Positions 47,063-64,000 of a DNA stretch of 64,000 nucleotides are shown here, one piece after another. The notes beneath the pieces were generated by a model, which saw only the letters and a list, made by a program, of their open reading frames with translations, made no database searches and was not told the origin of the DNA. Made by a program: the position numbers and the translations under genes. The stretch comes from Roseovarius sp. S88 (GTDB taxonomy: Bacteria > Pseudomonadota > Alphaproteobacteria > Rhodobacterales > Rhodobacteraceae): NCBI RefSeq assembly GCF_037023735.1, contig NZ_CP146069.1, positions 1,529,501-1,593,500 of the forward strand. The letters run 5' to 3'. Numbering within the stretch: position 1 is the stretch's first letter; each line of letters starts with the position of its first letter.

Positions 47063-48058
47063 ATGTTTCACTCCACAAATTCTAACGGATACGTCGCTGT
47101 TGTTCTTATGGACGGATTCTCGGCGCTGAGCCTTGGCGCTATTGTCGAGCCGTTTTCATATCTGTCGCAGGCATATCCCGACATCGCGCCGAACATGATC
47201 CTAGTCGGCCTTGACGGTTTACAGACGCAATCGCAAAGCGGTGTAGAGGTGCATTGTGACGAGGACAGCAAGACGCTGATCAAGCGTTTGAACCTTGGGC
47301 GTGCAAAAGCGCGGATAATTGTATGTGGTCCAACGCATGCGGGGCCTGTCCAAGATCATGATTTATCATCTGTTTTGCGCGCGGCGACACGACATGGCGC
47401 ATCAATCTGCACTCTTGGAGGCGCGACCTGGAAGATGGCCGAAATTGGACTGTTAAAGGATCGTGCAACTACCGTGCACTGGTCATTGCTCGCAGCATTT
47501 TCAGAAAGTTATGCTGAGGTCGACACGCGTGACGCTCTCTATATCCCGGATGAAAAGATTACCAGCTGCGCGGGGGAGACTGCTACGCTCGACATGGTGC
47601 TTGAACTAATCTCATCTATCTCCCCGGCTGCGGCAGAAAGAGCTGCTAATCACTTCTTGGTGGCCTCTCCACGGAACGGGTTGGCCTCTCAACCCGGGGC
47701 TCGGGCTAATCGATTGAGGGGCGTCCCATCACTTTTGTCTGACGCTGTAAGAGTGATGGCCGACAACATAGAAGAACCTTTGAAGGCTGCCTCGATTGCT
47801 ACTTACTGCAATGTATCTGTGCGCAAGCTAGAGCGACTTTTCCAGTCGCATCTGGGTACATCACCGATCCAATACTATACGCAGCTTCGTATGGGGCATG
47901 CTCGTGACCTGCTGATGCAAACCGACATGTCGTTGTTGGATATCGCTGTGGCGTCCGGTTTTTCGTCAACCGGGCTGCTGACGAAGAAGTTCAAAAAAAA
48001 TTATGGGCTGACACCAACACAGATGCGGAATGAGGCAAGGATCGGCACGATTGCCTGA
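47063..48058 (+). CDS. GlxA-type transcriptional regulator (DJ-1/PfpI domain plus AraC HTH)
   Basis: The 331-residue protein has an N-terminal class I glutamine-amidotransferase-like domain (about residues 10-190, with GASICTLGGATWKMAEIGLL at about 112-131). A C-terminal AraC/XylS DNA-binding domain (about 228-325) contains KAASIATYCNVSVRKLERLF and GFSSTGLLTKKFKKNYGLTP. GbdR, CdhR and SouR, which sense glycine betaine, carnitine and sarcosine, share this architecture. It precedes the catabolic island by 200 bases and is likely to control it. Confidence 0.9.
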   Translation: MFHSTNSNGYVAVVLMDGFSALSLGAIVEPFSYLSQAYPDIAPNMILVGLDGLQTQSQSGVEVHCDEDSKTLIKRLNLGRAKARIIVCGPTHAGPVQDHDLSSVLRAATRHGASICTLGGATWKMAEIGLLKDRATTVHWSLLAAFSESYAEVDTRDALYIPDEKITSCAGETATLDMVLELISSISPAAAERAANHFLVASPRNGLASQPGARANRLRGVPSLLSDAVRVMADNIEEPLKAASIATYCNVSVRKLERLFQSHLGTSPIQYYTQLRMGHARDLLMQTDMSLLDIAVASGFSSTGLLTKKFKKNYGLTPTQMRNEARIGTIA

Positions 48059-48261
48059 CCACTCGAAGAGTCAGATTTCCTATATTGAACGTTCAGATCA
48101 TATGGCTAATTGGATTCCCCGGCTGAGGCTAGTCTTCAAGCGAATACGCTAGGACATGGGCGGGCCGGATTTTCGTAACGTGAACACGACTCGTCAATTC
48201 CTGTGAAAAATCCGGGTGCGTCAATGCCTGCGCGGTTCGATGCACAATACAAGGTTCACGC

Positions 48262-50202
48262 ATGAACAACGATATCCTATGGGTCCCTGATGAGTCGGCC
48301 TTTACCGACAGTGGTTTGGCTAGATTTGCCAAATCCTGTGGTTTTGATCCCAAGAATTACGCCGATCTGCACCGTTGGTCTGTTAGTGATTCTGGATCTT
48401 TCTGGTCTGCAGTGTGGGATTTCACGGATGTGGTCGGCGAGAAAGGAGATGTGTTCTTCGTACCGGATGAAACTGCCTGGATGACCGGTGCACGGTTTTT
48501 TCCAGAAGCTCAGCTTAACCTCGCCGAGAATCTGGTGCGCGGCAATGGTGCAGAAGTTGCCGTGTATGAAATGCTCGAAAGTGGTTCGATGAGCGTGATT
48601 ACGAGGGCCGAGTTGCGTCAGCGGGTGGGCCGAGTTGCGCAGGGGCTCAGGTCTGAAGGTGTGATGCCTGGTGACCGGGTGGCTGGTGTCATGCCAAACA
48701 CGATTGATGGGTTGGTGGCCGCTCAAGCTACAATTTCAATTGGGGCGGTCTGGACCTCGTGTTCCCCCGATTTTGGTACATCAGCCATTGTAGATCGTAT
48801 CGGTCAGGTGGATCCAAAGGTATTGTTTGCGGCACCACGGTATCGCTATGGCGGCAAAGACCACGACATTGGTGCGCGGATCGCAGATGTTATGTTGCAG
48901 TTGCCATCGGTCCGGACCCTGGTCCAAAGCGGGGAGGGGGAGGTGCCAGGGTTGTCTTCGGTGCTTATGGGGGATTTTGGCAAAGACGCGGAACCCGAGT
49001 TTACGCGTCTGCCCTTCGATCATCCGGTGTATATTCTGTATACATCGGGGACAACCGGCGCGCCCAAAGCCATCGTTCACCGCGCTGGTGGGGTCTTGTT
49101 GCAACATCTCAAGGAACACATCCTGCATGGTGATGTTCGCCCGGGCGACAAGGTGATTTGGTACACCAACACTGCGTGGATGATGTACCACTGGATGGTG
49201 TCAGCTCTTGGTGCGGGGGCCGCAGTCGTGCTTTACGACGGAGCTCCGATACTCAAAAGAGAAGGTGTTTTGGACCCCTCGCCGTTGTGGACCCTGGCGG
49301 AACAGATTGGTGTCACACATTTGGGAACCAGCCCGAAGTACCTCGCGACGCTTGCCGCAGAGGGTTATGCGCCGGGTGAATTGCATGATCTATCCGCTCT
49401 GCGAAGTCTGCTTGTGTGCGGTGCGCCGACGCTGCCTCATCAATTTGATTGGGTCTATCAGTCGATCAAAAGTGATATGGTCTTTTCGTCAATCTCTGGC
49501 GGCACAGAAATTCTTGGTTCCTTTTTGATCGGGTCGCCGCTGCATCCTGTGCGACGAGGGCAATTGACGGTCAAGGCGCTTGGCCATGCGATTGACGTGC
49601 TTGACGAACGCGATGCACCTTGTATCGCGCGGCGTGGTGATCTTGTCTGTACAGAGCCCTTTCCATCTATGCCGCTGACCTTCTGGGGCAAGGGTGGTGA
49701 TCAACGATATCGTGATACCTACTTTGCGGATCGGGACGAGATTTGGACTCACGGGGACGTTGCTGAACTGACTCACGTGGGCGGTGGATACGTCCATGGA
49801 CGATCTGACAATACTCTCAAGCCTGGCGGCGTGCGCATCGGCATTTCCGAGATTTATGCCGTGTGCGAGTCCTATCCCGAATTGGAGGATTTTCTGGTCT
49901 TCGGGGTTTCACACGAAGGAGATGAAGAAGTAGTTCTTTGCCTCAAACCAAAGAAAACTTCGGAGATAACTGCCGATCTGGTGAAGAGTATTCGGGGGCA
50001 TATCCGCACCGCTGCGTCACCGCGCCATGTCCCGGCGAGGGTGCATGTGGTGTCGGACATACCTTACACAATCAACGGCAAACGTGTGGAGGGCGCTGCG
50101 CGCACGGCAGCCGCCGGAGGTCAGGTAAAGAACCTTGGCTCGATCGCCAACCCGGAAAGCCTTGAGCACTACAAGTCACTACGCCGGGAGGACACTCTTT
50201 GA
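48262..50202 (+). CDS. Acetoacetyl-CoA synthetase-like AMP-forming ligase
   Basis: This 646-residue protein matches the acetoacetate-CoA ligase (AacS) subgroup of the ANL family by length and motifs. These are FWSAVWDFTDVVGE (about residues 53-66), ILYTSGTTGAPKAIVHRAGG (about 257-276), SGGTEILGSFL (about 413), WTHGDVAELTHVGGGYVHGR (about 494) and YTINGKRVEGAAR (about 601, catalytic lysine). It makes a short beta-keto or similar acid into a CoA ester. It heads a gene string with a thiolase whose TTG start overlaps its stop. Confidence 0.88.
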   Translation: MNNDILWVPDESAFTDSGLARFAKSCGFDPKNYADLHRWSVSDSGSFWSAVWDFTDVVGEKGDVFFVPDETAWMTGARFFPEAQLNLAENLVRGNGAEVAVYEMLESGSMSVITRAELRQRVGRVAQGLRSEGVMPGDRVAGVMPNTIDGLVAAQATISIGAVWTSCSPDFGTSAIVDRIGQVDPKVLFAAPRYRYGGKDHDIGARIADVMLQLPSVRTLVQSGEGEVPGLSSVLMGDFGKDAEPEFTRLPFDHPVYILYTSGTTGAPKAIVHRAGGVLLQHLKEHILHGDVRPGDKVIWYTNTAWMMYHWMVSALGAGAAVVLYDGAPILKREGVLDPSPLWTLAEQIGVTHLGTSPKYLATLAAEGYAPGELHDLSALRSLLVCGAPTLPHQFDWVYQSIKSDMVFSSISGGTEILGSFLIGSPLHPVRRGQLTVKALGHAIDVLDERDAPCIARRGDLVCTEPFPSMPLTFWGKGGDQRYRDTYFADRDEIWTHGDVAELTHVGGGYVHGRSDNTLKPGGVRIGISEIYAVCESYPELEDFLVFGVSHEGDEEVVLCLKPKKTSEITADLVKSIRGHIRTAASPRHVPARVHVVSDIPYTINGKRVEGAARTAAAGGQVKNLGSIANPESLEHYKSLRREDTL

Positions 50203-51362
50203 AGGCGCTATGGAGCGAGGCGGTAATTTCAGGCATCGGTGAGCTGAAGCCTGAACGCAAGACGGATGGCATCAACACGATGGACCTGTTGATGAGGGTT
50301 TCGGCCGAGGCCGCTCAGGATGCAGGTATTGAGGTTGGCGAAATTGATGGGTTGCTTGTCGGTCCTCAAGTTGGCGAGACACCACAGCACGTGCCTGCAA
50401 CGGTGGCAGAGTACTTCGGAATGCAGCCTACGATGTCCAACGTGGTCGATCTAGGCGGGGCATCAGGCCCAGGCATGATCTGGCGAGCGGCGGCTGCCAT
50501 CCAGATGGGCATGTGCGAGACGGTGCTCTGTGTACTGGGAAATCATCGTAATCCGGTGCTACCTCGTTCGCACAATCGCAACCCGGCGCGAGAGTTTGAC
50601 ACGCCCTTCGGAGCATCGGGGGCCAACACGTCCTACGCCTTACTCATGCAAGCACATATGTCGCAATATGGTTGCGCGGCCGAGGACTACGCCGCTATCG
50701 CCGCTGGTGCACGTGCCAATGCTCAGTTGAACCCGCTGGCGATCTTTCACGGTAAGCCGGTGGATGTGGAAGGTGTCTTGGCCTCGCCGATGGTGACATC
50801 GCCTCTGCACCTTCTTGAGATTGTGATGCCCGTTGCAGGCGGTGAGGCGGTGATAGTTACAACGCCGGGGAAAGCCAGGAAGTCCGCGCACAGACCAGTG
50901 CGTTTGTTGGGCGCGGGTGAGAAAATCACGCACCGTGCTGTGAGTCAGGCGCCTAGCTTGACCTCTGGCCCTTTGAAGCCATCGATTGCACGCGCGTTAC
51001 AACAGGCCGCGATGGACGTCTCTGATATACGTTTTTTGTCGCTCTATGATTGTTACACCATAATGGTAGCCGCAACCATTGAAGATGCCGGGCTGTGTAA
51101 ACCCGGAGATTTTGGACAATGGCTTAGCGCCAATGGCGGCATGGGTCTTGGTGCGCGTCAGCCGATCAACACACATGGAGGTCAGCTTGGTTTTGGTCAG
51201 CCTGATCTTGCTGGTGGAATGACCCATGTGGTCGAAGCAGTGCGCCAGTTGCGAGGCACAGCCAACGGGCGCCAGATCGAAGACTGCGAAACGGCGCTGG
51301 TTACCGGAAACGGAGCAACTATGAGTGAGGCTGTGGCGCTAATATTGGGAAGCGTATCATGA
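50199..51362 (+). CDS. Thiolase-family protein (SCP-x type), partner of DUF35
   Basis: The 387-residue protein belongs to the non-decarboxylating thiolase superfamily. It starts EAVISGIGELKPERKTDGIN, with a first half of LDLGGASGPGMIWRAAAAIQ-like character (about residues 85-104) and a C-terminal GMGLGARQPINTHGGQLGFG (about 313-332, histidine of the GGxGFG-type loop). The usual active-site cysteine motif is not obvious in the first half, as in SCP-x/DUF35-linked thiolases. The start is taken as TTG at 50199, supported by GGGAGGA 7 bases before it. It is coupled with the DUF35 gene by a 4-base overlap. Confidence 0.82.
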   Translation: MKALWSEAVISGIGELKPERKTDGINTMDLLMRVSAEAAQDAGIEVGEIDGLLVGPQVGETPQHVPATVAEYFGMQPTMSNVVDLGGASGPGMIWRAAAAIQMGMCETVLCVLGNHRNPVLPRSHNRNPAREFDTPFGASGANTSYALLMQAHMSQYGCAAEDYAAIAAGARANAQLNPLAIFHGKPVDVEGVLASPMVTSPLHLLEIVMPVAGGEAVIVTTPGKARKSAHRPVRLLGAGEKITHRAVSQAPSLTSGPLKPSIARALQQAAMDVSDIRFLSLYDCYTIMVAATIEDAGLCKPGDFGQWLSANGGMGLGARQPINTHGGQLGFGQPDLAGGMTHVVEAVRQLRGTANGRQIEDCETALVTGNGATMSEAVALILGSVS

Positions 51363-51772
51363 AGACAGTTTTGCAAGAACTTTCGGTGCCTGGGCCAACC
51401 GTGACAGCGCTTACAGAACCCTTCTGGAACGCCGTCAAGTTTGGCAGGTTGATGATTCAACATTGCGCCGCCTGTCACCGCGCGGTCTTTTACCCGCGCA
51501 CGATTTGCCCGCATTGCTGGGCGGATGCTTTGACCTGGACAGAGGCCACAGGTCAAGGGCGGCTCAAGAGCTATTCAGAGATTTGGAAGCCGGGTCATCC
51601 AGGATGGATTCCAGCAACGCCGTATCTGGTGGGCTTGGTTGAATTGGATGAGGGACCGACCATGCTTAGCCACATCCTGGCAGACGGTGCGAAAGTGACT
51701 GTCGGGGATGCTGTGCACTTCGCCCCCACCCAGATCGGCGACCAGATACTTCCTTGTTTCAAAATTACTTAA
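51359..51772 (+). CDS. DUF35 OB-fold/zinc-ribbon protein
   Basis: The 137-residue protein has an N-terminal rubredoxin-like zinc ribbon (CAACHRAVFYPRTICPHCW, four cysteines at about residues 39-57). An OB-fold (about 65-130) with the typical YLVGLVELDEGPTMLSHI follows. DUF35 proteins form complexes with SCP-x-type thiolases, bind acyl-CoA and are needed for their activity. The coupled preceding gene matches this pairing. Confidence 0.9.
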   Translation: MKTVLQELSVPGPTVTALTEPFWNAVKFGRLMIQHCAACHRAVFYPRTICPHCWADALTWTEATGQGRLKSYSEIWKPGHPGWIPATPYLVGLVELDEGPTMLSHILADGAKVTVGDAVHFAPTQIGDQILPCFKIT

Positions 51773-51791
51773 CACAAATCGGGAGAGCAAG

Positions 51792-52244
51792 ATGACTGAC
51801 AAGATCAAAGATGGCTGGATTGGTGTCACCAACGGAAAACCAACGGTTGGGCAAGCCAGTGAACGCAGCCGCACCACGCTAATGCAAGATATCCATTCTT
51901 TCACCGATATGACGGGTGACCGTAACCCCGTGCACTATGACGAGGCACTCGCGAAGAAGACTGCGTTTGGGAAGTTGATCGTTCAAGGCGGCGTGACAAC
52001 GGGCATTCTTAATGCCTGTGTGGCCGAAGATTTACCAGGGCCAGGCACCGTGTTTCTCAACACCAACCTTAATTTTAAGAAAGCGGTAGGTGTGGGTGAA
52101 GAAATCACTGGCCGTGTAGAAGTGGCCTCTATGCGTGATGACAAGCCTATCTGTACGCTCAACGTCTCTGTGCGCGATGCAGACGGCGACGTTTGTGTCG
52201 AGGGAACCGCTACCACTTATACAATGCCTCTTGACGGGCTTTGA
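51792..52244 (+). CDS. MaoC-like hydratase
   Basis: The 150-residue protein is a single-hotdog-fold (R)-enoyl-CoA hydratase-type protein. The catalytic hydratase 2 motif is TGDRNPVHYDEALAKKTAFG (about residues 41-60; aspartate and histidine). GGVTTGILNACVAEDLPGPG follows. It would hydrate or dehydrate an acyl-CoA intermediate made by the ligase and thiolase upstream. The ATG at 51792 has GAGAG close before it. Confidence 0.88.
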   Translation: MTDKIKDGWIGVTNGKPTVGQASERSRTTLMQDIHSFTDMTGDRNPVHYDEALAKKTAFGKLIVQGGVTTGILNACVAEDLPGPGTVFLNTNLNFKKAVGVGEEITGRVEVASMRDDKPICTLNVSVRDADGDVCVEGTATTYTMPLDGL

Positions 52245-52276
52245 AGGTACGGGCTGAGAGCTTAAAGGACAATGAC

Positions 52277-53473
52277 ATGGGCAAATGGCAAGCGCTGACG
52301 CTTACTGGCGTCGCCGTGCTCTTGTCGCTGATGACATGGTTCTCGGCCACGGCCGTGTTGCCTGAGCTCACGTCGGTACATGATCTGACAGCGGGCCAAG
52401 CTGCATGGTTGACCAACGCAGTGCAGCTTGGCTTCGCAGTGGGTGCTTTGTTTGCGAGCAGTCTGGCGGTTGCTGATGTATTGCCACTGACTCGCTACAT
52501 GGCAGCTGCGGCGGCACTCGCTTGTGTTGCGAATGCATTGCTGCTTGTCGACATGGGAGCGACTGGAGCTATTGCGGCGAGGTTTTTGACGGGAGTCGCC
52601 CTTGCCGGTGTTTATCCGCCCGCAATGAAGCTCATCGCAACTTGGTTCAAGACGGGGCGCGGAATCGCGATGGGTGCTATGGTGGGCGCGCTCACGCTTG
52701 GTTCTGCCATGCCGCACTTGGTGCGCGGCACCGGCGGCATGGTAGCTTGGGAGGCGGTAGTGCTTATCTGCTCGTTGGGTAGTGCCGTCGCAGCGCTTTT
52801 GTTTGGGTTGGTCTTGCGAGAAGGCCCACACGCGTTTGCACGCACACGGGTCAGTGTGCGGCAGGTTGGGCAGATCCTAAGAAATGGACCGGTTATGCTC
52901 GCAAATCTGGGGTATTTCGGCCATATGTGGGAGCTTTACGCGATGTGGGGCTGGTTTCTGGCCTACGCCGGGCACGCGTCGACGGAAGGTATTGGTGCAA
53001 TCAACGTCTCGCTGCTCACCTTTGCGGTGATCGCTGCAGGTGCACCGGGGTGCCTTCTTGGTGGCTGGCTTGCTGAACGGATTGGGCGCTGCCGGACGAC
53101 AATCCTGATGATGGGTGTTTCCGGGGTATCTGCCCTCTTTATCGGTGTCTTCTTCGGTGGACCGACTTGGGCCTTTGCGACAATCGCGTTGATCTGGGGT
53201 TTTACTGTCGTCGCCGACAGCGCGCAGTTCTCTGCCGCAGTGTCTGAGCTTTCGGAGCCTCATCTGGTTGGATCGTCACTGACATTTCAGATGGGAGTTG
53301 GATTTGCGATCACCATTCTAACCATATGGCTTACCCCTTTGATGGCTGCATGGCTGGGAAGTTGGCAGTGGACTTTTGTCTTGCTGGCACCCGGGCCGCT
53401 GATTGGAGTAATTTCTATGTATCTGCTTTACCGTCATCCAAAATCCGCGCTGATGGCTGATGGGCAACGCTGA
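52277..53473 (+). CDS. MFS transporter
   Basis: The 398-residue protein has 12 predicted spans. It carries MFS signatures such as VGALFASSLAVADVLPLTRY (about residues 57-76) and GWLAERIGRCRTTILMMGVS (about 259-278), a loop 8-9 motif. It would carry an organic acid or other small solute. The ATG at 52277 has AAGGA seven bases before it. It is in the middle of the catabolic string, so the substrate may be an intermediate or product of the pathway. Confidence 0.88.
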   Translation: MGKWQALTLTGVAVLLSLMTWFSATAVLPELTSVHDLTAGQAAWLTNAVQLGFAVGALFASSLAVADVLPLTRYMAAAAALACVANALLLVDMGATGAIAARFLTGVALAGVYPPAMKLIATWFKTGRGIAMGAMVGALTLGSAMPHLVRGTGGMVAWEAVVLICSLGSAVAALLFGLVLREGPHAFARTRVSVRQVGQILRNGPVMLANLGYFGHMWELYAMWGWFLAYAGHASTEGIGAINVSLLTFAVIAAGAPGCLLGGWLAERIGRCRTTILMMGVSGVSALFIGVFFGGPTWAFATIALIWGFTVVADSAQFSAAVSELSEPHLVGSSLTFQMGVGFAITILTIWLTPLMAAWLGSWQWTFVLLAPGPLIGVISMYLLYRHPKSALMADGQR

Positions 53474-53490
53474 TGCAATGGAGGATCAAG

Positions 53491-54072
53491 ATGTACCGTT
53501 TCCGGTTGTTCGCCGTGCGTCACGCGCGTGGTTTTGAATGGATCTACAAGGTGGTGGAGCGTGCAATGGTCCTGCTCGATCCGGTGTTTGCCAAGGCCGG
53601 CTACAATCGGGTGGAAAGACCCATCGCCATGGTTGAAAAAGGCGTTAAATCATTGTTGTTTGATTGCAAGATGTGCGGTCAATGCGTGCTATCTTCAACC
53701 GGTATGTCCTGCCCGATGAATTGCCCAAAGCTGATACGCAACGGCCCCTGTGGTGGAGTGCGCGACGGTGGTTATTGCGAAGTCAAACCTGAGATGAAAT
53801 GTGTTTGGGTGTTGGCCTGGGATGGGGCCAGTCGGATGAAAAACGGAGGTGAAAAAATCCGCGAGGTCTTGCCCCCGGTCGAACATTCACTTCAAGGTTC
53901 ATCGTCTTGGTTGCGGGTCAGTCGCGAAAAAGCCAACGCGATCCGGGAAAGTCGGGATGCGTCACGCAAGGCGCTGGTTAAAGCCTTTCCCGAAGCTCGG
54001 CTGAACGAGCCTGCTGCAGCACCACTTAGCGTCGAGCCGTCGAAAGCTACGCGGGCAGAGGCTGAGAAATGA
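53491..54072 (+). CDS. MetV-like cysteine-rich partner of methylenetetrahydrofolate reductase
   Basis: This 193-residue protein has the MTHFR C-terminal (MetV) domain. Eight cysteines lie within CKMCGQCVLSSTGMSCPMNC and the following CGGVRDGGYCEV and MKCVW (about residues 52-105), suitable for iron-sulfur or zinc binding. In MetVF pairs of acetogens and some proteobacteria this subunit carries the electron route of the reductase. GGAGG lies 7 bases before the chosen ATG. It overlaps the metF-like gene by 4 bases. Confidence 0.85.
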   Translation: MYRFRLFAVRHARGFEWIYKVVERAMVLLDPVFAKAGYNRVERPIAMVEKGVKSLLFDCKMCGQCVLSSTGMSCPMNCPKLIRNGPCGGVRDGGYCEVKPEMKCVWVLAWDGASRMKNGGEKIREVLPPVEHSLQGSSSWLRVSREKANAIRESRDASRKALVKAFPEARLNEPAAAPLSVEPSKATRAEAEK

Positions 54073-55058
54073 TAGAGACTACTGCAAATGAAGAACTCTT
54101 GACCTATGCGCCGCCGCCTGAAGGGTATGTGTCGCACAGTCGACTGGAGCGCGTCTTACGTTCGGGTCGATTTGCTGTAACAGCGGAGTTAAATCCGCCT
54201 GACAGCGCGGATGCAGCGGATGTCTATCAGGCGGCGCGACCATTGGGCGAGGTGGCGGACGCGATCAATGCAACGGATGCCTCAGGTGCTAATTGTCATA
54301 TGTCATCCATCGGCATTTGCGCTCTCCTGACCCGGGCGGGGTATTCGCCTGTCTATCAGATTTCCTGCCGGGACCGGAACCGGATCGCGATACAGGGCGA
54401 TGTGCTGGGGGCTGCGGCGCTAGGTGTCTCCAATGTATTGTGCCTAACTGGAGATGGCGTCGGGGTCGGCGATCAGCCTGGGGCAAAAGCAGTTTTCGAT
54501 TTTGACTCTCTCTCGCTCTTGCGCACCATACGCACTATGCGAGACGAAGGTGTTTTTCTATCAGGTCGTAAGATCACGCGCCCGCCGCACCTGTTCCTTG
54601 GCGCTGCTGAGAACCCCTGCATTCAACCTTACGAATGGCGCCCAGACCGGTTAATCAAAAAGATCGACGCGGGTGCCGAATTCATTCAGACCAACTACAT
54701 TTACGACATTCCATTGTTTGAGGCTTTCATGGCGCGAGTGCGTGATGCGGGCGGCGATAAACGGGCTTTTATAATCGCGGGCGTGGGCCCGCTTGCTTCG
54801 GCCAAGGCAGCCCGATGGATGCGCAATAACGTGCCTGGCATTCACATCCCTGACCAAATCATCGACCGGATGGAAGCGGCCGACAACCCATCTGAGACGG
54901 GCAAGCAGATCTGTATCGAATTGATACAGCAGTTGCGCGAGATAAAAGGCGTCGCCGGCGTACACATAATGGCTTATCGCCGCGAGCAACTCGTCTCCAG
55001 CATCGTAATGGATTCCGGTGTTCTGACGGGGCGGCGAAAGGGAAAGGCACGCCCCTAA
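54069..55058 (+). CDS. metF: Methylenetetrahydrofolate reductase
   Basis: The 329-residue protein is an FAD-binding TIM-barrel enzyme of the MetF family, a size close to the norm (about 300-330). Motifs include AELNPPDSADAADVYQAA (about residues 39-56), DATDASGANCHMSSI-like folate contact region (about 70-85), NVLCLTGDGV (about 121-130), GAEFIQTNYIYDI (about 201-213) and AFIIAGVGPLASAKAARWM (about 231-249). Next to a GcvT-like methyltransferase it would run towards 5-methyl-THF oxidation, removing methyl groups taken from a substrate. A regulatory methionine role is less likely here. Confidence 0.92.
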   Translation: MIETTANEELLTYAPPPEGYVSHSRLERVLRSGRFAVTAELNPPDSADAADVYQAARPLGEVADAINATDASGANCHMSSIGICALLTRAGYSPVYQISCRDRNRIAIQGDVLGAAALGVSNVLCLTGDGVGVGDQPGAKAVFDFDSLSLLRTIRTMRDEGVFLSGRKITRPPHLFLGAAENPCIQPYEWRPDRLIKKIDAGAEFIQTNYIYDIPLFEAFMARVRDAGGDKRAFIIAGVGPLASAKAARWMRNNVPGIHIPDQIIDRMEAADNPSETGKQICIELIQQLREIKGVAGVHIMAYRREQLVSSIVMDSGVLTGRRKGKARP

Positions 55059-55739
55059 GCCGGAAGGCGCTTTGCTACGTATCTAATTCTTGATGGCAAT
55101 TTGCCGGTGCACGGCCACGCCAAATTCACCTATTCTGGACGGCTACAAGAATATACTCGGTTCGGTTTTGCCAAAGATTGAGTCGGCCAGAGGCTAATTC
55201 CATGCGCATCAAACGGGAAGAATTTTCAATGAAAGGTGACTCCCATGACATTCCAATATTCGGAAAAACGGATTCCTCGGAGTTTGAGTCCTCTGGGGTT
55301 TGACCAACTCAGATTTACGTGATCGCGGAGCTGACCGAGTTGGCCAAACTTCAAAATAAAATTTTAAATCAACGACCTGCCTAGCATTCCAAGATGCAGG
55401 TCGTCATGGAGTTTCACTGAATTGAACCCAGTGCATCGGTGCCCATGTCGCGTTTCGGAGCCTGCCACTCAGATAGATCAGCTTAATGCAGTGGTTAGAA
55501 TAACCGATTTCCCAATGAATGAAGCCACCCACATACTTTTCTTGAGTTAGCGAGCCAGCTGGATCGGCTGACCTGTGGTCATAACCAGACTCGCTCTCAT
55601 CAAAGATGCCTTCGGAGTGAGGACGGGTCTGAGTATTGGCCAAGTGTCACAACGCACGACCCATTGAAGGACAAAACATTCAGATGGTGGTGCCCGCATT
55701 TGCGATTGCCGCTACCGAAGTTACGGGAGGATAAGCAAG
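55059..55739. other. 681-base gap before the ABC-transporter operon
   Basis: No confident plus-strand gene. A 79-codon minus-strand frame (55404-55643) is followed directly by an inverted repeat (ACGACCTGC 55372-55380 and GCAGGTCGT 55396-55404). On that strand the repeat leads into a T-rich tract (55349-55371), so it is terminator-like, and a small gene or remnant may end here. The region should also hold the promoter for the TorT-like gene; GGGAGGA precedes its ATG. Confidence 0.5.
55372..55404 (-). terminator. Terminator-like hairpin, minus strand
   Basis: Perfect 9-base arms ACGACCTGC and GCAGGTCGT with a 15-base loop. Read on the minus strand they lead into TTGATTTAAAATTTTATTTT. The minus-strand frame 55404-55643 ends on the hairpin itself. 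This fits intrinsic termination of a short minus-strand transcript. Confidence 0.55.
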
Positions 55740-56822
55740 ATGAAGATAATGAATAAATCGCTGCGATTTGCTGCAATCGCAGGCCTGGCGTTGTCGCTGG
55801 GTGGGGCTGCCGCCGCGGGTGATACGTGGGAATGGTGGCCAAATTCGGCGGAGAAAATCAGCGGAGATGTTGTTGAGACATTTGACTACACGCCGCGGAT
55901 GGATGCGCCATCGCAAAAGTGGCATGTATGCGTTTTGCTGCCGCACCTGAAAGACACCTGGTGGGTCGGCATCGGCGTTGGTGCAATGAAGGAAGCCGAG
56001 CGGCAGGGTATTAAGGCTTCGCTCTTTCAAGCTGGTGGGTACACTGAGCTGAATAAACAGTTATCGCAATTTGATGACTGTGTTGCCCTAGGCGTGGATG
56101 CTATCCTGATTGCTGCAATCTCCGAAGGAGCACTGAAACCGAAGATCGAAGCCGCTCGAGAGAAGGGCGTTAAACTGGTGGCCGTCGGCAATCCGATGTC
56201 CGACGATGTCACGCTCGATTCAGCGGTTTTTGGGGACTACAACATTGATGCTGAAGTGGCCGGCAAGGCGCTGGTGGAGCATTATGAAGCCATGGGCAAG
56301 GAAAGCGCCCGCGTTATAAACTTTGCCGGTGTCGCCGGTGCAGGGTGGGCCGAGCAGGCTGCGCAAGGGTGGACCAACGCCTTTGAAGGCACGAGCGTTG
56401 AGCTAGTCGAGCACAAATATGGCGAAACCGGGAAAAGCACACAGCTCAAACTTGTTGAAGATACCATCCAGACCTATGACGATATCGACGCTTACGTCGG
56501 TGTGGCTGTCATGGCCGAAGTTGCACCTGACGTTTTGGAAGAAGCAGGGATGGCAGGTAACGTCGATATTCTGGCCTTCTACATGTCCGAAGGCGCTTTG
56601 AACGGCGTGATAGACGGATCGGTACTTGGCGTTGCCTCGAACCCTATGGTCGTTGAGTCAGCGGTGGCGATGGACACAGCAATACGTCTGCTTGAAGGAG
56701 AAGAGGTGCCGGGTCGCATGCGCTTGCCACCGGTCTGGATCGATAAGCAATTTGTTGAGACGCAGGACATGTCAAAGTTCACGCCTCCCGATGGCTGGGA
56801 AGTGATCTACACTGTCGAGTGA
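55740..56822 (+). CDS. TorT-like periplasmic binding protein of an ABC transporter
   Basis: This 360-residue protein has a signal peptide (cleavage near AAA-GD, residue 26). Its type-I periplasmic-binding fold resembles TorT: WHVCVLLPHLKDTWWVGIGV (about residues 60-79), QAGGYTELNKQLSQFDDCVA (about 98-117) and GVDAILIAAISEGAL follow. TorT senses TMAO with TorS in E. coli. Here no torS is present and RbsA/RbsC-type ABC genes follow, so it acts as an importer binding protein, possibly for an amine oxide or related N-methyl compound. Tryptophans near the N-terminus (WEWWPN) and in the first lobe could form a cation-binding cage. Confidence 0.85.
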   Translation: MKIMNKSLRFAAIAGLALSLGGAAAAGDTWEWWPNSAEKISGDVVETFDYTPRMDAPSQKWHVCVLLPHLKDTWWVGIGVGAMKEAERQGIKASLFQAGGYTELNKQLSQFDDCVALGVDAILIAAISEGALKPKIEAAREKGVKLVAVGNPMSDDVTLDSAVFGDYNIDAEVAGKALVEHYEAMGKESARVINFAGVAGAGWAEQAAQGWTNAFEGTSVELVEHKYGETGKSTQLKLVEDTIQTYDDIDAYVGVAVMAEVAPDVLEEAGMAGNVDILAFYMSEGALNGVIDGSVLGVASNPMVVESAVAMDTAIRLLEGEEVPGRMRLPPVWIDKQFVETQDMSKFTPPDGWEVIYTVE

Positions 56823-56977: not shown

Positions 56978-58561
56978 ATGACCGCGAATTCAGCCACCAA
57001 TCCAACAGGCGCATCTGCAAAGGTGGACACTCCTCTCATCGACATGAAGGGGATCCAAAAACGCTTTCCCGGTGTGTTGGCACTGGACCAGATCGAGTTC
57101 GAATTGCGTCCGGGAGAAGTGCACGTTCTATTTGGCGAGAACGGTGCTGGAAAATCCACATTGATCAATGTCATTTCAGGAACCTTCCCTCAGGACGGTG
57201 GTATTTACAAATTTTGTGGCGGAGTCTTAAGCAACCTCAATCCGTATCGTGCTCGCCAGATTGGGATCAGCCCGGTGTTTCAGGAGTTCAGCTTGGCTCC
57301 AGATCTGACCATAGAGGAAAACCTATTTCTGGGGCGGGAGGTCAGCAAGGGCGGGGTTTTAAACAAAGGCGAAATGCGCACGAAGGTCGCGCAGGTCCTG
57401 GAATCTCTCGGCTTCGATCTGTTGGCAAAACAGCGGGTGGCTGAGCTGTCACGCGCTCAACAACAGATGGCGGAAATTGCAAAGGCGCTTTTGCATGACG
57501 TACGCGTTTTGATCCTGGATGAGCCGACGGCGTCTCTGAGTGAGCGAGAAACTGAACGGTTGTTTGAAATTATTGACGATCTCAAAGCCCAGGGAGTCGG
57601 GATCATCTACGTGTCGCACCGCATGGCGGAAATCAAACGCTTAGCAGATCGCGTCACAGTGTTGCGGGATGGGCGGCTCGTCGGGACAGTTGAGGCCGAG
57701 CTGGTGAGTGAAGAGAAATTGATCGAAATGATGACCGGTCGAACATTTGAGGCGATGTTCCCCCAAATTGAAAATCGCGCAGGTGACACGCTTTTACAGA
57801 CCTCCGGACTAACGACGCGGGACCGGTTGGTGGATAACGTGGACTTCAGCGTCAAAGCTGGAGAGGTCGTGGGAATTGCCGGGCTGGTAGGCTGCGGCAA
57901 ATCGGAATTGGCACGTGCTGTTTTTGGTCTCGAAGACATTGAAAGTGGCAGGATAGAGTTGATGGGGCAAACGGTCACGCGACCGTCACCAGCACATATG
58001 CTTAATCGCGGCTTGTGTTACTTCCCATCAGACAGGGTGGCGGAGGGTTTGGCTTTACCTCGGTCGATCCGCGAGAACATGACGTTGGCGGCACTTGATT
58101 TGAAAGCCTTTGCATCTCACGGTTTTCTGAAAATTAACTCTGAACGTCGCATCGCAGAAGAGATGATCCGACGTTTAACAGTAGCCCCAAGTGATCCGGA
58201 GAAACGTGTCGAGTTCCTGTCGGGTGGGAACCGCCAAAAAGTGATGCTGGCCCGTGGGCTTGAGCGGGATGTTAAGGTTTATCTTTTTGACGAACCGACA
58301 GTTGGCATCGATGTCGGTGCGAAAACGGAAATTTATAACCTCATTAAGGAAATGGCAGAGGGCGGGGCTGCGGTGGTCGTCATCTCGTCAGAGTTGCCCG
58401 AAGTGATCCACCTGTCGCATCGAGCTTACGTGATGCACCGGGGTGCATTGGTGGCCGAGTTGACAGGAGATGAGATCAACGAAGCGACAATCCTCGCGCA
58501 CTTCTTTGACCGCGATCATCTGGACGAGGCAAGCTCGCCATCGCTTCGGGATGCAGGGTAG
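56978..58561 (+). CDS. ABC transporter ATP-binding protein (RbsA-type, two domains)
   Basis: The 527-residue protein has two fused ATPase domains. The first has Walker A FGENGAGKST (about residues 51-60), signature ELSRAQQQMA (about 160) and Walker B VLILDEPTASLS. The second has the modified Walker A GLVGCGKSEL (about 305), signature FLSGGNRQKVMLARGL (about 413) and Walker B VYLFDEPTVGID. The modified Walker A in the second domain is normal for the carbohydrate CUT2 family. It powers the two RbsC-type permeases downstream. Confidence 0.93.
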   Translation: MTANSATNPTGASAKVDTPLIDMKGIQKRFPGVLALDQIEFELRPGEVHVLFGENGAGKSTLINVISGTFPQDGGIYKFCGGVLSNLNPYRARQIGISPVFQEFSLAPDLTIEENLFLGREVSKGGVLNKGEMRTKVAQVLESLGFDLLAKQRVAELSRAQQQMAEIAKALLHDVRVLILDEPTASLSERETERLFEIIDDLKAQGVGIIYVSHRMAEIKRLADRVTVLRDGRLVGTVEAELVSEEKLIEMMTGRTFEAMFPQIENRAGDTLLQTSGLTTRDRLVDNVDFSVKAGEVVGIAGLVGCGKSELARAVFGLEDIESGRIELMGQTVTRPSPAHMLNRGLCYFPSDRVAEGLALPRSIRENMTLAALDLKAFASHGFLKINSERRIAEEMIRRLTVAPSDPEKRVEFLSGGNRQKVMLARGLERDVKVYLFDEPTVGIDVGAKTEIYNLIKEMAEGGAAVVVISSELPEVIHLSHRAYVMHRGALVAELTGDEINEATILAHFFDRDHLDEASSPSLRDAG

Positions 58562-58568
58562 CGCAATC

Positions 58569-59585
58569 ATGGAAAAAACACTCAATCCAATCCACAAAGC
58601 TGAAAGCCGGCAAAGTGCTGTCATGCGTCGCCTGATGGTTCTTGGACTTTTGCCGCTATTGATGATCGTTCTGTGCATCGTCCTGGGCCTGGTCGAGCCG
58701 AAGTTTCTGCGCAGCGCCAATCTTATCAACGTGCTGCGAAATGCCTCTTTCCTGATGCTGATTGCTTCAGGGCAGATGATGGTGCTGATCATCGGCGGCT
58801 TTGACTTGTCCATCGGAGCGGTGGTGGCGCTGACCTCTGTGACGACCGCACTGAGTATGAATGCACTGATTGCATTATTTCCGGATTCATATCTGCTTGT
58901 GATCTCTCTTGGCGTGCTGGCAGGACTGGGTGCTGGAGCTGCTGTTGGGTTGCTCAACGGTTTCGTCGTTGCCTTGATGAAGGTCAGCCCGTTCATGGTG
59001 ACGTTGGGCACGCTGTCAATTGCATCAGGTCTTGCGCTCTACATGACCCAAGGTGTGCCGGTTTACGGGATGCCGGATCTCTTCACGCGTGATTTCGGGC
59101 GAATGCGGATTTTTAATCTGCCTGTGGTTATCTATCTGACGGCAGCAATGCTGGTTCTCATCTGGTGGATGATGAACCATACGAAGTTCGGCAAGTACAT
59201 GTATGCCATTGGCAGCAATGAACATGCCGCGCGCGTCTCGGGCGTGAAGGTGACCTTCTATATCGTGGCAACCTACACTGTCTGTTCGATGGTGGCGGCC
59301 CTGACTGGTATTTTGCTTACAGCACGGGTTGGCTCCGGCGAGGCGGGCCTTGGCGCAACACTGATGATGGAAAGCATAGCCGCCGCGGTGATCGGAGGAG
59401 TTTCCCTGCGTGGTGGTGTGGGGCGTGTTGAAATGGTCGCCCTTGGTGCTCTCTTCCTGGCCCTTGTCACAAACGCAATGAACTTGTTGCGGGTGGACAG
59501 CAAATTGCAAACGATTGTCATTGGCGTCGTCATCATCCTGGCCGTCGGTATCGAAACCTATCAGTCCAAGAGGGCGAAACGATGA
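58569..59585 (+). CDS. ABC transporter permease (RbsC type), first copy
   Basis: The 338-residue membrane protein has about 9-10 spans and the branched/CUT2 permease signatures: GQMMVLIIGGFDLSIGAVVA (about residues 73-92), GAAVGLLNGFVVALMKVSPF (about 124-143) and RAxxxLxAIGSNEHAARVSG-type region (IGSNEHAARVSGVKV at about 214-228). The ATG at 58569 is chosen because the longer frame overlaps the ATPase gene. It is coupled to the second permease by 4 bases. Confidence 0.9.
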   Translation: MEKTLNPIHKAESRQSAVMRRLMVLGLLPLLMIVLCIVLGLVEPKFLRSANLINVLRNASFLMLIASGQMMVLIIGGFDLSIGAVVALTSVTTALSMNALIALFPDSYLLVISLGVLAGLGAGAAVGLLNGFVVALMKVSPFMVTLGTLSIASGLALYMTQGVPVYGMPDLFTRDFGRMRIFNLPVVIYLTAAMLVLIWWMMNHTKFGKYMYAIGSNEHAARVSGVKVTFYIVATYTVCSMVAALTGILLTARVGSGEAGLGATLMMESIAAAVIGGVSLRGGVGRVEMVALGALFLALVTNAMNLLRVDSKLQTIVIGVVIILAVGIETYQSKRAKR

Positions 59586-60604
59586 GCGATCAGGTGAATG
59601 TAAACACGGCGAGCGGTTCGGGTCTTTACAAAATGATGATGGGGTTTTTTGCTAGCTATGGGTTTTTGCCCGTGATCCTTGTCTTTATTTATCTGGGATT
59701 TGGCCTGGTTGAACCGGTCTTTCTAACCGGGGCAAATGCACTGAACATTATTGAACAGGCGAGCTATCTGATAGTTCTGGCGACCGCGCAAATGTTCGTG
59801 TTGCTTACTCGCGGTTTCGACTTGTCACTTGGCGTTGTTGTGTCTGTTGTCAGCGTGGCCAGTGCGATGGTTATGGTCTCGATCGCACCAGAAGGTGAAG
59901 GTCCTGTCATCCTAGCTTTAACCGCTGGTATCTTCACAGCACTAGCCGTTGGGGCAACGGCAGGGGGGATTAATGGTTTATGCGTTGCCTATCTCGGGAT
60001 CAATCCATTCGTCGTTACCCTAGGGATGCAGGGCATCGCATTTGGGTTGGCTACTACGATTTCTGGTGGATTCCCTGTCTTTGGCTTACCTGAAGTGTTG
60101 ATCAACAGTTTGGGGCAAGGCGGGGCATGGCTCGGTTTTTTGTCCCCGCCGGTTGGTGTCTGTATTGTCATACTTTTGCTGTCACATTTCATTCTGAATT
60201 ACACCGTTTTTGGGCGCAGTCTTTATTTGCTAGGATCCAATCCGCGAGCAGCAGAGGTGGGTGGTTTACCCTGGCGGCGGCACAACATGATGGCCTATGT
60301 GCTGTGTTCGACTATTGCCGCCATAGGCGCAATCCTAATCACCGCGCGCACCGGAACGGGCGAGCCAAGCACGGGCGGCGGCTTGGTGCTGCTCAGCATT
60401 GCGGCAGCTGTTGCAGGCGGGGTGTCCTTGCGCGGTGGGGAAGGTCGGGTAATCCATGTTGTTTTCGGGGGTCTCCTAGTATCGGTACTGTCGGTGGGCA
60501 TGAACCTGGCAAGGATCGACAGCTTCCTGCAGCAGGTTGTACTTGGGTTTGTCGTGGTCGGAGCAGTCTTTCTGGACCGTTTGCGTTTGCGCATCCGGCT
60601 TTAA
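59582..60604 (+). CDS. ABC transporter permease (RbsC type), second copy
   Basis: The 340-residue membrane protein has the same permease signatures as its neighbour, with RGFDLSLGVVVSVVSVASAM (about residues 79-98), GGINGLCVAYLGINPFVVTL (about 127-146) and LLGSNPRAAEVGGLPW (about 217). With the first copy it is likely to form a heterodimeric channel. It ends the ABC operon proper; 192 bases separate it from the ProX-like gene. Confidence 0.9.
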   Translation: MSDQVNVNTASGSGLYKMMMGFFASYGFLPVILVFIYLGFGLVEPVFLTGANALNIIEQASYLIVLATAQMFVLLTRGFDLSLGVVVSVVSVASAMVMVSIAPEGEGPVILALTAGIFTALAVGATAGGINGLCVAYLGINPFVVTLGMQGIAFGLATTISGGFPVFGLPEVLINSLGQGGAWLGFLSPPVGVCIVILLLSHFILNYTVFGRSLYLLGSNPRAAEVGGLPWRRHNMMAYVLCSTIAAIGAILITARTGTGEPSTGGGLVLLSIAAAVAGGVSLRGGEGRVIHVVFGGLLVSVLSVGMNLARIDSFLQQVVLGFVVVGAVFLDRLRLRIRL

Positions 60605-61729
<1,125 letters not shown>

Positions 61730-62038: not shown

Positions 62039-63238
62039 TTGCCAGATACAGCTCAGACGCAAGGCCTCGATAAGGTCATTCACGCTCATTCGCACACAGT
62101 GCTTAAGCTGAACACAAAGCGGTTCGACAAATCACCCTATTTCGACAAATGGGCAACCAAAGATACGATCTTCGGTATCTACAACACGCGCTTGTATGCA
62201 GTGTCCTTTGGGGAGGATGTGATTGCTGACTATTGGCAGTTGCGCAAAGGCATTATGCTATATGATGTGCCTGAGATGCCGATTGCCATCAAGGGGCCCG
62301 ATGCAGTTAAGCTACTGGAACGTGCGCTTACCCGAAAGATAGGAAATATGGGCGTCTGGAAGGCGCGCTATGCTATTGCCTGCACACCGCAAGGCGGAAT
62401 CATCATGGATGGTGTCGTGATCCGTCTGGCTGAAGACCATTTCTGGTACGTTCAGGCCAATGGTGGCTTTGAGCATTGGCTTAATCTGATGTCCGATGGC
62501 ATGGATGTCGAGGTTAGCGATCCGCAATCGCGGGTCTTGCAGGTGCAAGGCCCCAAGGCTCTGGAATTCTTGGAAAAAGCCTGTCCTGGGCAGAAGCCGG
62601 AGCGTTGGGGGTACTTTAACGCAGGCCGCTTTAGCTTCAACGGTATGGAAGCAGTTGTGTCTCGAACCGGTTTCACGGGAGAGATGGGAATCGAGATTTA
62701 CGGTAATCCGGAAAACGACCCGCACAAGTTCTGGGATTACATCTTTGAGGTCGGGAAAGAGTTCGGCCTGCGCATGGGGGCGGGCGGGTCAATGACACTG
62801 CGTCGAGTGGAGGCTGGTATCCTCGACTACGACATGGACATCAATCCTGGCACGACCCCATTTGATGCAGGGCTTGAAAGCCTCGTGGAGTTTGACAACC
62901 CTGACTTCATCGGGCGCGATGCGCTGATGAAGGCCGACAAGCGGAGACGGCTATATGGGCTTAAGTGCGAAACTGGAATCCCGCGAGTAGGCACTCGGAT
63001 TTTGGATGACGGTCAAGACGTTGCCCGCATGACAATCGGGGACTGGTCTCCCACATTGGAGAAAGGCATCGGCTACGTCCTGTTTGACGAACCAGAGAGT
63101 TCCAGCGGAGCTTGGGTCGGACGAACGCTTCAGATCGAGACACCCGATGGGAATATGCACAAGGCAGAGATTGTCGAGCTTCCGTTTATGGACCCGGACA
63201 AGAGGATCCCGCGCGGGCTGGAAACGCCACCTGAATAA
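62039..63238 (+). CDS. GcvT-family tetrahydrofolate-dependent demethylase (DmdA-like)
   Basis: The 399-residue protein has the aminomethyltransferase fold: FGIYNTRLYAVSFGEDVIAD (about residues 45-64), LYDVPEMPIAIKGPDAVKLL, RTGFTGEMGIEIYGN (about 211-225) and GGSMTLRRVEAGILDYDMDI (about 255-274). The C-terminal GcvT domain follows. Members move a methyl group from a substrate to THF (DmdA with DMSP; GcvT with glycine; others with sarcosine or methoxy compounds). MetF and the MetV-like protein upstream would oxidise the resulting 5-methyl-THF. The start is TTG at 62039 (AAGGA 12 bases before) because no ATG fits. Confidence 0.87.
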   Translation: MPDTAQTQGLDKVIHAHSHTVLKLNTKRFDKSPYFDKWATKDTIFGIYNTRLYAVSFGEDVIADYWQLRKGIMLYDVPEMPIAIKGPDAVKLLERALTRKIGNMGVWKARYAIACTPQGGIIMDGVVIRLAEDHFWYVQANGGFEHWLNLMSDGMDVEVSDPQSRVLQVQGPKALEFLEKACPGQKPERWGYFNAGRFSFNGMEAVVSRTGFTGEMGIEIYGNPENDPHKFWDYIFEVGKEFGLRMGAGGSMTLRRVEAGILDYDMDINPGTTPFDAGLESLVEFDNPDFIGRDALMKADKRRRLYGLKCETGIPRVGTRILDDGQDVARMTIGDWSPTLEKGIGYVLFDEPESSSGAWVGRTLQIETPDGNMHKAEIVELPFMDPDKRIPRGLETPPE

Positions 63239-63315: not shown

Positions 63316-63789
63316 ATGGATATGAATGGCGAACAAAAAATTAACGCCCCGCAAGCCGTGGTTTGGCAGGCATTGAACGATCCGGATATGTTGCGTGATA
63401 GTATTCCAGGCTGCCAGGAACTGGAAAGAACCGGAGAAAATGGGTTTGAAGCCACAGTGAAGGCCAAGGTTGGTCCAGTCTCCGCGAAGTTCGCTGGAGT
63501 GGTCGAACTGCTCGATATAAATGAGCCTGAGAGCTACAGAATATCAGGAGAGGGCAAAGGCGGCGTCGCAGGATTCGCTTCGGGAAGTGCAAATGTCCGG
63601 CTTGTACCTAATGGTGAAACGACCACTTTGTTATACACCGTCAATGCCAAGGTAGGCGGCAAACTTGCTCAAATTGGCAGTCGGTTGATTGACAGTGCAG
63701 CCAAGAAGATGGCTAGCCAGTTTTTCACCAAGTTCTCAGATAATCTTGAGGCATATTCCCCAGAGTCACCGGCAGAACCAGCCGACTGA
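63316..63789 (+). CDS. CoxG-family SRPBCC protein
   Basis: The 157-residue protein starts MDMNGEQKINAPQAVVWQAL and continues DPDMLRDSIPGCQELERTGE, typical of CoxG, a START/SRPBCC-fold protein found with molybdenum hydroxylases. CoxG anchors CO dehydrogenase-type enzymes at the membrane. The ATG at 63316 is favoured by family resemblance to the usual MDMTGEYRI start. It is followed by a CoxS-type gene. Confidence 0.88.
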   Translation: MDMNGEQKINAPQAVVWQALNDPDMLRDSIPGCQELERTGENGFEATVKAKVGPVSAKFAGVVELLDINEPESYRISGEGKGGVAGFASGSANVRLVPNGETTTLLYTVNAKVGGKLAQIGSRLIDSAAKKMASQFFTKFSDNLEAYSPESPAEPAD

Positions 63790-63940
63790 TACTGGCCCAG
63801 CGTTAAGTTTAGCTAAACGCTGGGGGCAGATTAAACGAGTTCCCCAAATTTACAGGCAGAGATACTTTTTACACACGGGCGCACTGCGCCTGACCAATCG
63901 CGATGATCATGGTGATGCTAAACCGGGGAGGGGGTCGCAC

Positions 63941-64000
63941 GTGCCTACTATTTCTATGACTGTGAACGGCAGGGATGTGTCTGGTGACGTCGAAGGACGC
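63941..64000 (+). CDS. CoxS-type iron-sulfur subunit of a molybdenum hydroxylase, partial
   Basis: Only the first 20 codons are in the window. The GTG start at 63941 is preceded by GGGAGGGGG. The encoded VPTISMTVNGRDVSGDVEGR is the normal start of the [2Fe-2S] subunit (CoxS/CutS) of CO-dehydrogenase-like or heterocycle hydroxylases. Right after CoxG it predicts that a three-subunit enzyme continues beyond the window. Confidence 0.75.
   Translation, partial: MPTISMTVNGRDVSGDVEGR

Follow-up and report, generated by a model that had tools for sequence, protein, structure and literature searches.

Introduction

Dimethylsulfoniopropionate (DMSP) is demethylated through DmdA, DmdB and DmdC/D, together with MetF. 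This pathway is among the described systems closest to an island of genes in Roseovarius sp. S88 whose plus-strand run opens at 47063 of a 64,000-nucleotide stretch of the 3.64 Mb genome (C1:1529501-1593500; hereafter the window, whose coordinates are meant unless another locus is named). The island is real, conserved and composite, and most likely comprises two tetrahydrofolate (THF)-linked demethylation pathways; this marine bacterium holds two side-by-side gene sets, each seemingly able to import and demethylate a small methylated compound. Our preferred account, to which we give about even credence, is that two methyl-group catabolic blocks have been joined, block I splitting a methylated onium hydroxy acid and block II processing another methylated compound. 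Labels beginning with G, C and L denote genomes, contigs and the DNA stretches read, respectively; the window's genome is G000.

As in DMSP demethylation, a THF-dependent GcvT-like demethylase, a coenzyme A (CoA) ligase, a hydratase and MetF share one neighbourhood, and in two loci of MetF relatives (L080 and L081) a GbdR-like–MetV–MetF run lies beside a DmdA-like gene and a CoA ligase, with a crotonase in L081. Unlike in that pathway, the island's GcvT and the related GcvT' fall far under the DmdA model, the ligase is of the acetoacetate-CoA ligase (AACS) type, the hydratase is of the MaoC type, and there is a pair made up of a Cys-less thiolase-like protein and an OB-fold protein. Corrinoid-dependent glycine betaine demethylation uses MtgB, MtgC, MtgD, RamA and MetF2 (PMC12478193). 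Relatives of the island's MetV-MetF pair occur in corrinoid clusters, and the oxidation of methyl-THF would be similar. The island differs in having a GcvT-like enzyme instead: it holds no MttB gene, profile scans of it gave no corrinoid or RamA match, and the nine MTTB-family matches in the genome all lie outside the window.

The island also resembles the hydratase/aldolase systems of steroid side-chain degradation (Shy-Sal and ChsH1-ChsH2-Ltp2), in which a MaoC protein, a DUF35/OB protein and a thiolase-fold protein come together (PMC11321319). It differs from them in its small separate proteins, its AACS-type ligase and the lack of any sterol genes seen. BKACE takes part in carnitine degradation, and profile scans, which covered the island and not the rest of the genome, matched neither this enzyme nor a carnitine dehydrogenase. 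Aerobic carnitine degradation under CdhR/GbdR (PMC5806209) shares with the island a GATase-1 AraC regulator and, possibly, glycine betaine as an end product; unlike that route, the island has a CoA ligase and an aldolase-like pair.

According to PMC13240472, form II CoxL carries the motif AYRGAGR and form I the motif (A/S)YRCS(F/L)R, and the activity of form II is unresolved. The island has the form II motif, a CoxSLM set and CoxG. The island copy is distinguished by its tie to GcvT and a TorT importer and is separate from the genome's second CoxL; the two plasmid relatives examined (61.6% and 58.3%) lie beside MoxR, VWA and XdhC genes, with no annotated GcvT. Gonyol was used by four bacteria without release of dimethyl sulfide, three of them also without methanethiol, by a route that the study does not identify; the same paper suggests that something other than DmdA demethylates dimethylsulfonioacetate (PMC7221440). 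The clusters in Pseudohalocynthiibacter aestuariivivens BS-W9 and in genome G799 offer defined gene sets for the questions of the gonyol route and of form II CoxL.

The island and its two blocks

Every gene family that a preliminary description of this DNA had named is present on the plus strand between 47063 and 64000, as found by open reading frame listing, profile scans and comparison with relatives (tblastn). The end at 64000 is only the edge of the window, because the genes from CoxS to BetA run on past it in the same direction: CoxL, CoxM, DUF3179, LysR, ChoX, ChoW, ChoV and BetA follow, to about 74565. We define block I as 47063-55058, to which the lost GcvT' gene once belonged and the ChoXWV genes past the window may belong, and block II as 55740 to about 69750.

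In P. aestuariivivens BS-W9, a relative from the same family (NZ_JAGFNU010000018.1; loci L033 and L034), the run from the left LysR gene to BetA has the window's gene order, at 72-98% identity (tblastn). The sole extra gene there is an intact GcvT' between MetF and TorT, 45% identical to the window's GcvT. The seemingly intergenic stretch at 55059-55739 of the window contains a decayed 3' remnant of this second GcvT-like gene at 55152..55289 (+; 46 residues aligned at 50% identity, with E 5.5e-10 when these 681 bases alone were searched), and 298 bases ahead of TorT are 75% identical. Because the LysR-to-BetA order is matched gene for gene, bar GcvT', the island's gene set is more than chance. 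The GcvA-like LysR regulator at the left edge (45949..46866, minus strand; placed by tblastn against relatives) has one relative in L032 (58%), immediately ahead of TorT, and another in G799 (63%), next to GcvT'.

In other genomes the blocks also occur apart. TorT, the ATPase, two permeases, GcvT, CoxS, CoxL and CoxM stand in the same order, at 58-85% identity, in three metagenome-assembled genomes: G763 and G764, both labelled Hyphomicrobiales, and G765, labelled Rhodobacterales. Block I does not accompany them in what was read of G764 and G765 or on the two short contigs (L030 and L089) over which block II of G763 is divided. On contigs G765:C170 and G799:C4, two clusters of different layout each combine the block I CoA genes with a GcvT-like demethylase and a choline-type importer. 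The preliminary description had proposed import, demethylation and CoA-dependent breakdown as a single pathway. This recurrence argues for such a sequence, methyl-THF oxidation included, within block I, to which G799 adds MetV-MetF and a GbdR-like regulator. It is not supported for the whole island, since TorT, GcvT and CoxSLM lie apart from block I in G763, G764 and G765 and the CoA genes occur without a demethylase on five plasmids.

A single route, in which one methylated compound enters through the TorT-type ABC importer or the ProX-like protein and is then demethylated by GcvT, hydroxylated by CoxSLM and broken down by AACS, the thiolase-like protein and MaoC, has in its favour the joint presence of all genes in the window and in Pseudohalocynthiibacter, the G765 bin, which holds both blocks, and environmental contigs. 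Searches of environmental proteins report the longest contig per cluster, and we took linkage from matching contig sizes, the contigs themselves being unread. Four sizes (13414, 18278, 18649 and 29261) are common to the 26 closest GcvT relatives and the 119 listed thiolase relatives; comparing all 120 listed GcvT relatives with the thiolase list gives the same four, and 13414 and 18649 are also among the 119 listed GcvT' relatives. When the 26 GcvT sizes were jittered by up to 10%, chance matches with the thiolase list averaged 0.10 and never came to four in 200,000 draws, which suggests that four environmental contigs carry thiolase and GcvT, and with them both blocks. For the GcvT' list the corresponding mean was 0.20, and its further shared sizes (4004 with GcvT, 3007 and 10547 with thiolase) may be chance. 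Against a single route, L090 and L091 carry block II with nothing of block I beside it; G765 has the blocks on two contigs, each with an importer and a GcvT gene to itself; and in G799 an importer, a demethylase and an aldehyde dehydrogenase belong to block I itself, with no block II gene in the 44 kb read. We consider one pathway for the whole island improbable, because the two blocks exist apart elsewhere, and for the same reason judge a single conserved island unlikely.

Block I

Returning to two joined blocks, block I opens with a GATase-1 AraC regulator (47063..48058, +; profile scan) that is GbdR-like and scores far under the GbdR model (NF052371; 172.6 bits, cut-off 480). There follow, all on the plus strand, an acetoacetate-CoA-ligase family enzyme (48262..50202), an SCP2-thiolase-like protein without the nucleophilic Cys, a candidate aldolase (50199..51362; profile scan and alignment), its OB-fold/zinc-ribbon partner of the ChsH2/DUF35 type (51359..51772), a MaoC-type hydratase (51792..52244), an MFS transporter (52241..53473), a MetV-like (DUF5981) protein (53473..54072) and MetF, of the methylene-THF reductase family (54069..55058), the last five found by profile scan. 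Past the window come ChoX (69987-70937, +), ChoW (70952-71848, +), ChoV (71854-72882, +) and BetA (72916-74565, +).

The ligase passes the NCBIfam acetoacetate-CoA ligase model TIGR01217 (674.7 bits, cut-off 520.9), and an enzyme of this type would suit acids of acetoacetate-like build. In the thiolase-like protein the position of the nucleophilic Cys is Gly, and Gln stands at the His of the thiolase GHP motif, in all eight aligned sequences, the window's included. With the Cys missing, ordinary thiolysis was rejected. The MaoC protein reads GDRNPVH, presumably the hydratase Asp/His motif. MaoC, DUF35 and thiolase-fold aldolase proteins form established hydratase/retro-aldolase complexes in steroid degradation (PMC11321319); the same gene set is present here, making the thiolase-like/OB pair a candidate retro-aldolase.

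On G765:C170 the order is GMC oxidoreductase, small protein, EtfB, EtfA, Fe-S protein, AACS, thiolase-like, OB, MaoC, MFS, aldehyde dehydrogenase, GcvT', GST, ChoX, ChoW and ChoV. On G799:C4 it is GcvT', GbdR-like regulator, GMC, small protein, EtfB, EtfA, Fe-S, AACS, thiolase-like, OB, MaoC, MFS, aldehyde dehydrogenase, MetV, MetF, ChoX, ChoW and ChoV, flanked by a divergent LysR gene at one end and by methyl-THF:corrinoid methyltransferase and corrinoid-activase genes at the other. MetV-MetF and the GbdR-like regulator of the G799 cluster are not listed in the G765:C170 run. For the aldehyde dehydrogenases of G765 and G799 the best-scoring model is betaine aldehyde dehydrogenase, with 420.2 and 432.3 bits against a cut-off of 668.6. 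Compared with G799, the window has block II between MetF and ChoX; judged from these few arrangements, it may have been inserted there.

The window's ChoX, ChoW and ChoV exceed the cut-offs of the choline ABC models TIGR03414, TIGR03416 and TIGR03415 (421.2, 447.4 and 519.6 bits). Its ChoX is 81% identical to that of G799 and 52-65% identical to the 15 plasmid relatives listed. Following GWT, the Sinorhizobium ChoX has Asp, those of the window and G799 have Ala, and that of G765 has Asn; this residue presumably matters for choline, and we give it no weight.

GcvT-like proteins and the MetV-MetF pair

The block II GcvT-like methyltransferase (62039..63238, +; profile scans and tree) is a candidate THF-dependent demethylase. 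Its Pfam GCV_T score (145.1 bits, cut-off 25.6) indicates a folate-binding GcvT-type domain. It lies below the models for DmdA (NF009133; 171.9 bits, cut-off 410), for the trimethylamine N-oxide (TMAO) demethylase Tdm (NF053776; 178 bits, covering only the C-terminal half of a full-length model with a cut-off of 1100) and for the glycine cleavage T protein (TIGR00528; 129.6 bits, cut-off 235.85), and is about equidistant from the three; GcvT' proteins reach 142.8, 158.1 and 164.2 bits with the DmdA model. TMAO breakdown through Tdm was rejected on the Tdm score. A tree was built from 44 rows, of which 24 came from loci and 20 were drawn from 120 proteins, without the GcvT' of G799; in it, block II GcvT proteins form a clade of their own with support 100/100 and most GcvT' genes a separate one with 97/95; the GcvT' of G763:C99 falls outside both. 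The whole genome has 22 GCV_T matches, two of them weak, and nine MTTB matches in 3.64 Mb. The window's GcvT' may have been replaced by the block II GcvT or by one of these nine. In most family loci compared by tblastn, GcvT' occurs without other island relatives.

GcvT' relatives adjoin a BisC-family S/N-oxide reductase in L038:361-12276 (profile scan), L039:1598-12045 and L041:7278-10839 (the latter two by eye); L038 and L039 also have a ProX/ProV/ProW-type importer, an iron alcohol dehydrogenase and an aldehyde dehydrogenase. Such loci may serve the breakdown of an osmolyte that is an S- or N-oxide.

Six loci with MetF relatives at 79-88% identity were fetched, and two (L080 and L081) have both a regulator and a demethylase relative, as one run of DmdA-like gene, CoA ligase, GbdR-like regulator, MetV and MetF with an Lrp-type gene upstream. 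Relatives at 87-88% occur in G036:C40 and G055, where their neighbours are a DmdA-like gene, a GbdR-like gene and a CoA ligase; the DmdA-like proteins there score 378.7 and 382.3 bits, just below the DmdA cut-off of 410. MetV-MetF relatives at 63-65% are in corrinoid clusters on all three plasmids examined, two of them with a GlxA-type regulator, and the closest plasmid relative (74%) is beside FolD and GlyA. The pair in G763 (76%) stands alone, and the window's genome has no further such MetF (E <= 1e-120). Because its relatives adjoin corrinoid, FolD/GlyA and DmdA-like genes, the MetV-MetF pair seems to serve several demethylases. A catabolic MetF that oxidises methyl-THF derived from glycine betaine has been proposed in R. 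pomeroyi (PMC12478193).

Block II

Block II starts with a TorT-type periplasmic binding protein (55740..56822, +) and a CUT2-type ABC ATPase (56978..58561, +), both found by profile scan. Permeases A (58563..59585, +) and B (59582..60604, +) were assigned by position and by tblastn, at 71-98% and 73-95% identity to relatives. Next is a TmoX-like binding protein of the ProX/OpuAC type with no permease of its own adjoining (60797..61729, +), followed by GcvT, CoxG (63316..63789, +; profile scan) and the 2Fe-2S subunit CoxS (63941..64000 and on to about 64408, +). Past the window, on the same strand, lie CoxL (64424-66781), CoxM (66794-67597), DUF3179 (67613-68815) and a LysR gene that ends at 69753. 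Among the three metagenome-assembled genomes, the TmoX-like gene and CoxG were found in G765 only, the frame of the former being broken by unread bases. A LysR gene adjoins CoxM in all three; its neighbour is GcvT' in G763 and a BisC-family S/N-oxide reductase in G764 (922.1 bits, cut-off 1017.55). The DUF3179 gene follows CoxM in the window's genome (L009:3813-5015) and in Pseudohalocynthiibacter, sits between GcvT and CoxS in G763 (L089:2950-4149) and G764 (L090:11354-12553), and was not found in G765.

The binding protein passes one TorT model (NF008185; 217.3 bits, cut-off 200) and falls short of another (TIGR02955; 155.1 bits, cut-off 310). The closest solved relative of the ProX-like protein is 4xz6 (421 bits), the TMAO-binding protein TmoX of Ruegeria pomeroyi DSS-3 (PMC8918994). 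These two proteins raise the possibility that block II serves an N- or S-oxide such as TMAO or dimethylsulfoxonium propionate, captured by the TorT-type and TmoX-like proteins, demethylated onto THF by GcvT and oxidised as the product by CoxSLM. The TorT-type assignment favours such a substrate, as do six of the seven TMAO pocket residues given in PMC8918994, kept in the TmoX-like protein with Phe220 replaced by Gln, and the reductase beside block II in G764. However, searches of block II in G763 and G764 turned up no TmoX-like gene, TorT-type proteins also serve other operons (a 42% identical relative stands with hydantoinase genes), the reductase is a neighbour in one genome only and scores under its model's cut-off, and the 178 bits that GcvT reaches with the TMAO demethylase model are far short of its 1100-bit cut-off. 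Taken together, an oxide substrate is doubtful.

The island CoxL reads AYRGAGR, the form II motif, and form I CO oxidation was ruled out by the missing (A/S)YRCS(F/L)R. The same AYRGAGR is present in the CoxL of Pseudohalocynthiibacter, G763, G764 and G765 and in all ten other family loci read.

Proposed routes

From the observed gene content, linkage, family assignments and missing Cys, we infer the reactions, their order and both substrates as follows. In block I, the choline-type ABC transporter would import a small hydroxylated acid with a methylated onium group, the GcvT-like enzyme would move methyl groups to THF, and MetV-MetF would oxidise the resulting methyl-THF. The AACS-type ligase would form the CoA ester, MaoC would hydrate or dehydrate it, and the Cys-less thiolase-like/OB pair would split the 3-hydroxyacyl-CoA by retro-aldol cleavage into acetyl-CoA and an aldehyde. 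Oxidation of this aldehyde to a betaine-type acid would fall to an aldehyde dehydrogenase, whose gene is part of the cluster in G765 and G799 and is presumably located elsewhere or replaced in the window's genome. Candidate substrates are carnitine or crotonobetaine, giving betaine aldehyde and then glycine betaine, and gonyol, giving DMSP; if the substrate is a 3-hydroxy onium acid, MaoC would serve its unsaturated forms. Genes of the corrinoid-demethylation type adjoin the block I cluster in G799. In block II, the TorT-type importer, a further GcvT-like demethylase and the form II CoxL-type molybdenum hydroxylase would process a different methylated compound, which may be an N- or S-oxide.

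We tentatively suggest, as one possibility among several, that block I is an undescribed CoA-dependent, THF-coupled retro-aldol split of hydroxylated onium osmolytes of the carnitine or gonyol type to acetyl-CoA and a betaine-type aldehyde, and that block II is the first pathway for form II CoxL, oxidising a demethylated osmolyte. No description of the block I route was found in open-licence papers, and one may exist elsewhere. The preliminary description had named homarine, trigonelline or another betaine as possible substrates; nothing that we found points to homarine or trigonelline, and both were set aside, as profile scans of the island gave no ring-cleavage enzyme and no homarine-operon paper was among the open-licence papers listed. 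A hom operon has reportedly been published.

Several findings weigh against the two-block account. With GcvT' decayed, block I may be incomplete in the window, and what was read of G763:C99 and G764:C246 shows GcvT' with no other relative from the island. The proposed route leaves the GMC, ETF and Fe-S genes found in G765 and G799 unexplained, and these have no match in the window or the flanks searched (L009, L010 and L011), where the lone aldehyde dehydrogenase match is only 37% identical. The window's ChoXWV-BetA genes, which pass choline models, may be an ordinary choline operon. The ligase matches a plain acetoacetate model, and MaoC would be superfluous for a 3-hydroxy substrate. Four of the six MetF loci (L082-L085) gave no recognised regulator or demethylase relative by blastp, with a simple gene caller that misframes GC-rich DNA. 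Wrong binning is possible for G763, G764 and G765, because they were reached through metagenome-assembled genome records. A thiolase relative (E <= 1e-130) is found in three of 390 order genomes, in none of the 11 congeners listed and in one of 385 class genomes, the order and class counts both including the window's own genome.

Further points of this kind come from plasmids. AACS, thiolase-like, OB, MaoC and MFS genes, at 49-81% identity, are on plasmids of Sulfitobacter dubius, Rhizobium (two), Mesorhizobium and Shinella, with an adjoining acetyl-CoA acetyltransferase gene in all five, a TetR gene in four, and in all five a CUT2 sugar operon that includes genes for GntR, SDR and a class II aldolase (incomplete at the end of the stretch in one). 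These stretches of 21-25 kb each have no GcvT, MetF or Cox match (tblastn, E <= 1e-6); the CoA genes therefore stand without a demethylase nearby, and nothing requires their acid substrate to carry methyl groups. In block I, too, the CoA genes might then serve varied acetoacetate-like or beta-hydroxy acids, their adjacency to a demethylase reflecting a shared end product, acetyl-CoA, or chance. The plasmid neighbourhoods are consistent with this, as are the acetoacetate-CoA ligase score and Rhodococcus, where the thiolase, OB, MFS and MaoC genes come with a different, more distant ligase (29%). On the other side, three arrangements (window/Pseudohalocynthiibacter, G765 and G799) bring the CoA genes together with GcvT', of which the window keeps a remnant, and have a choline-type importer in the run as well, and we regard a general role in acid breakdown as rather unlikely. 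On the plasmids themselves (L047-L051), the CoA genes and the CUT2 operon with its class II aldolase and SDR genes, and a kinase gene where reached, perhaps form a deoxy-sugar acid pathway.

Distribution

Close relatives of the island's GcvT and thiolase-like protein are rare. GcvT (E <= 1e-125) has relatives in two of 292 order genomes, in none of the ten congeners listed and in one of 385 class genomes, and thiolase (E <= 1e-150) in two of 120 family genomes, the order, class and family counts each including the window's own genome. Patchy spread together with high identity suggests horizontal transfer. CoxL relatives at about 54-61% identity, by comparison, are in 89 of 120 family genomes, the window's own counted (E <= 1e-230). 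The window's genome has a second CoxL with AYRGAGR, 59% identical to that of the island, at C1:2291170-2293503 (L100); the island copy is therefore an addition. At C1:2693000-2712999 of the same genome (L044), matches to a ProX/V/W-type importer, a further GcvT-like gene and a CoxM/S/L-type set (26-45% identity) are also clustered.

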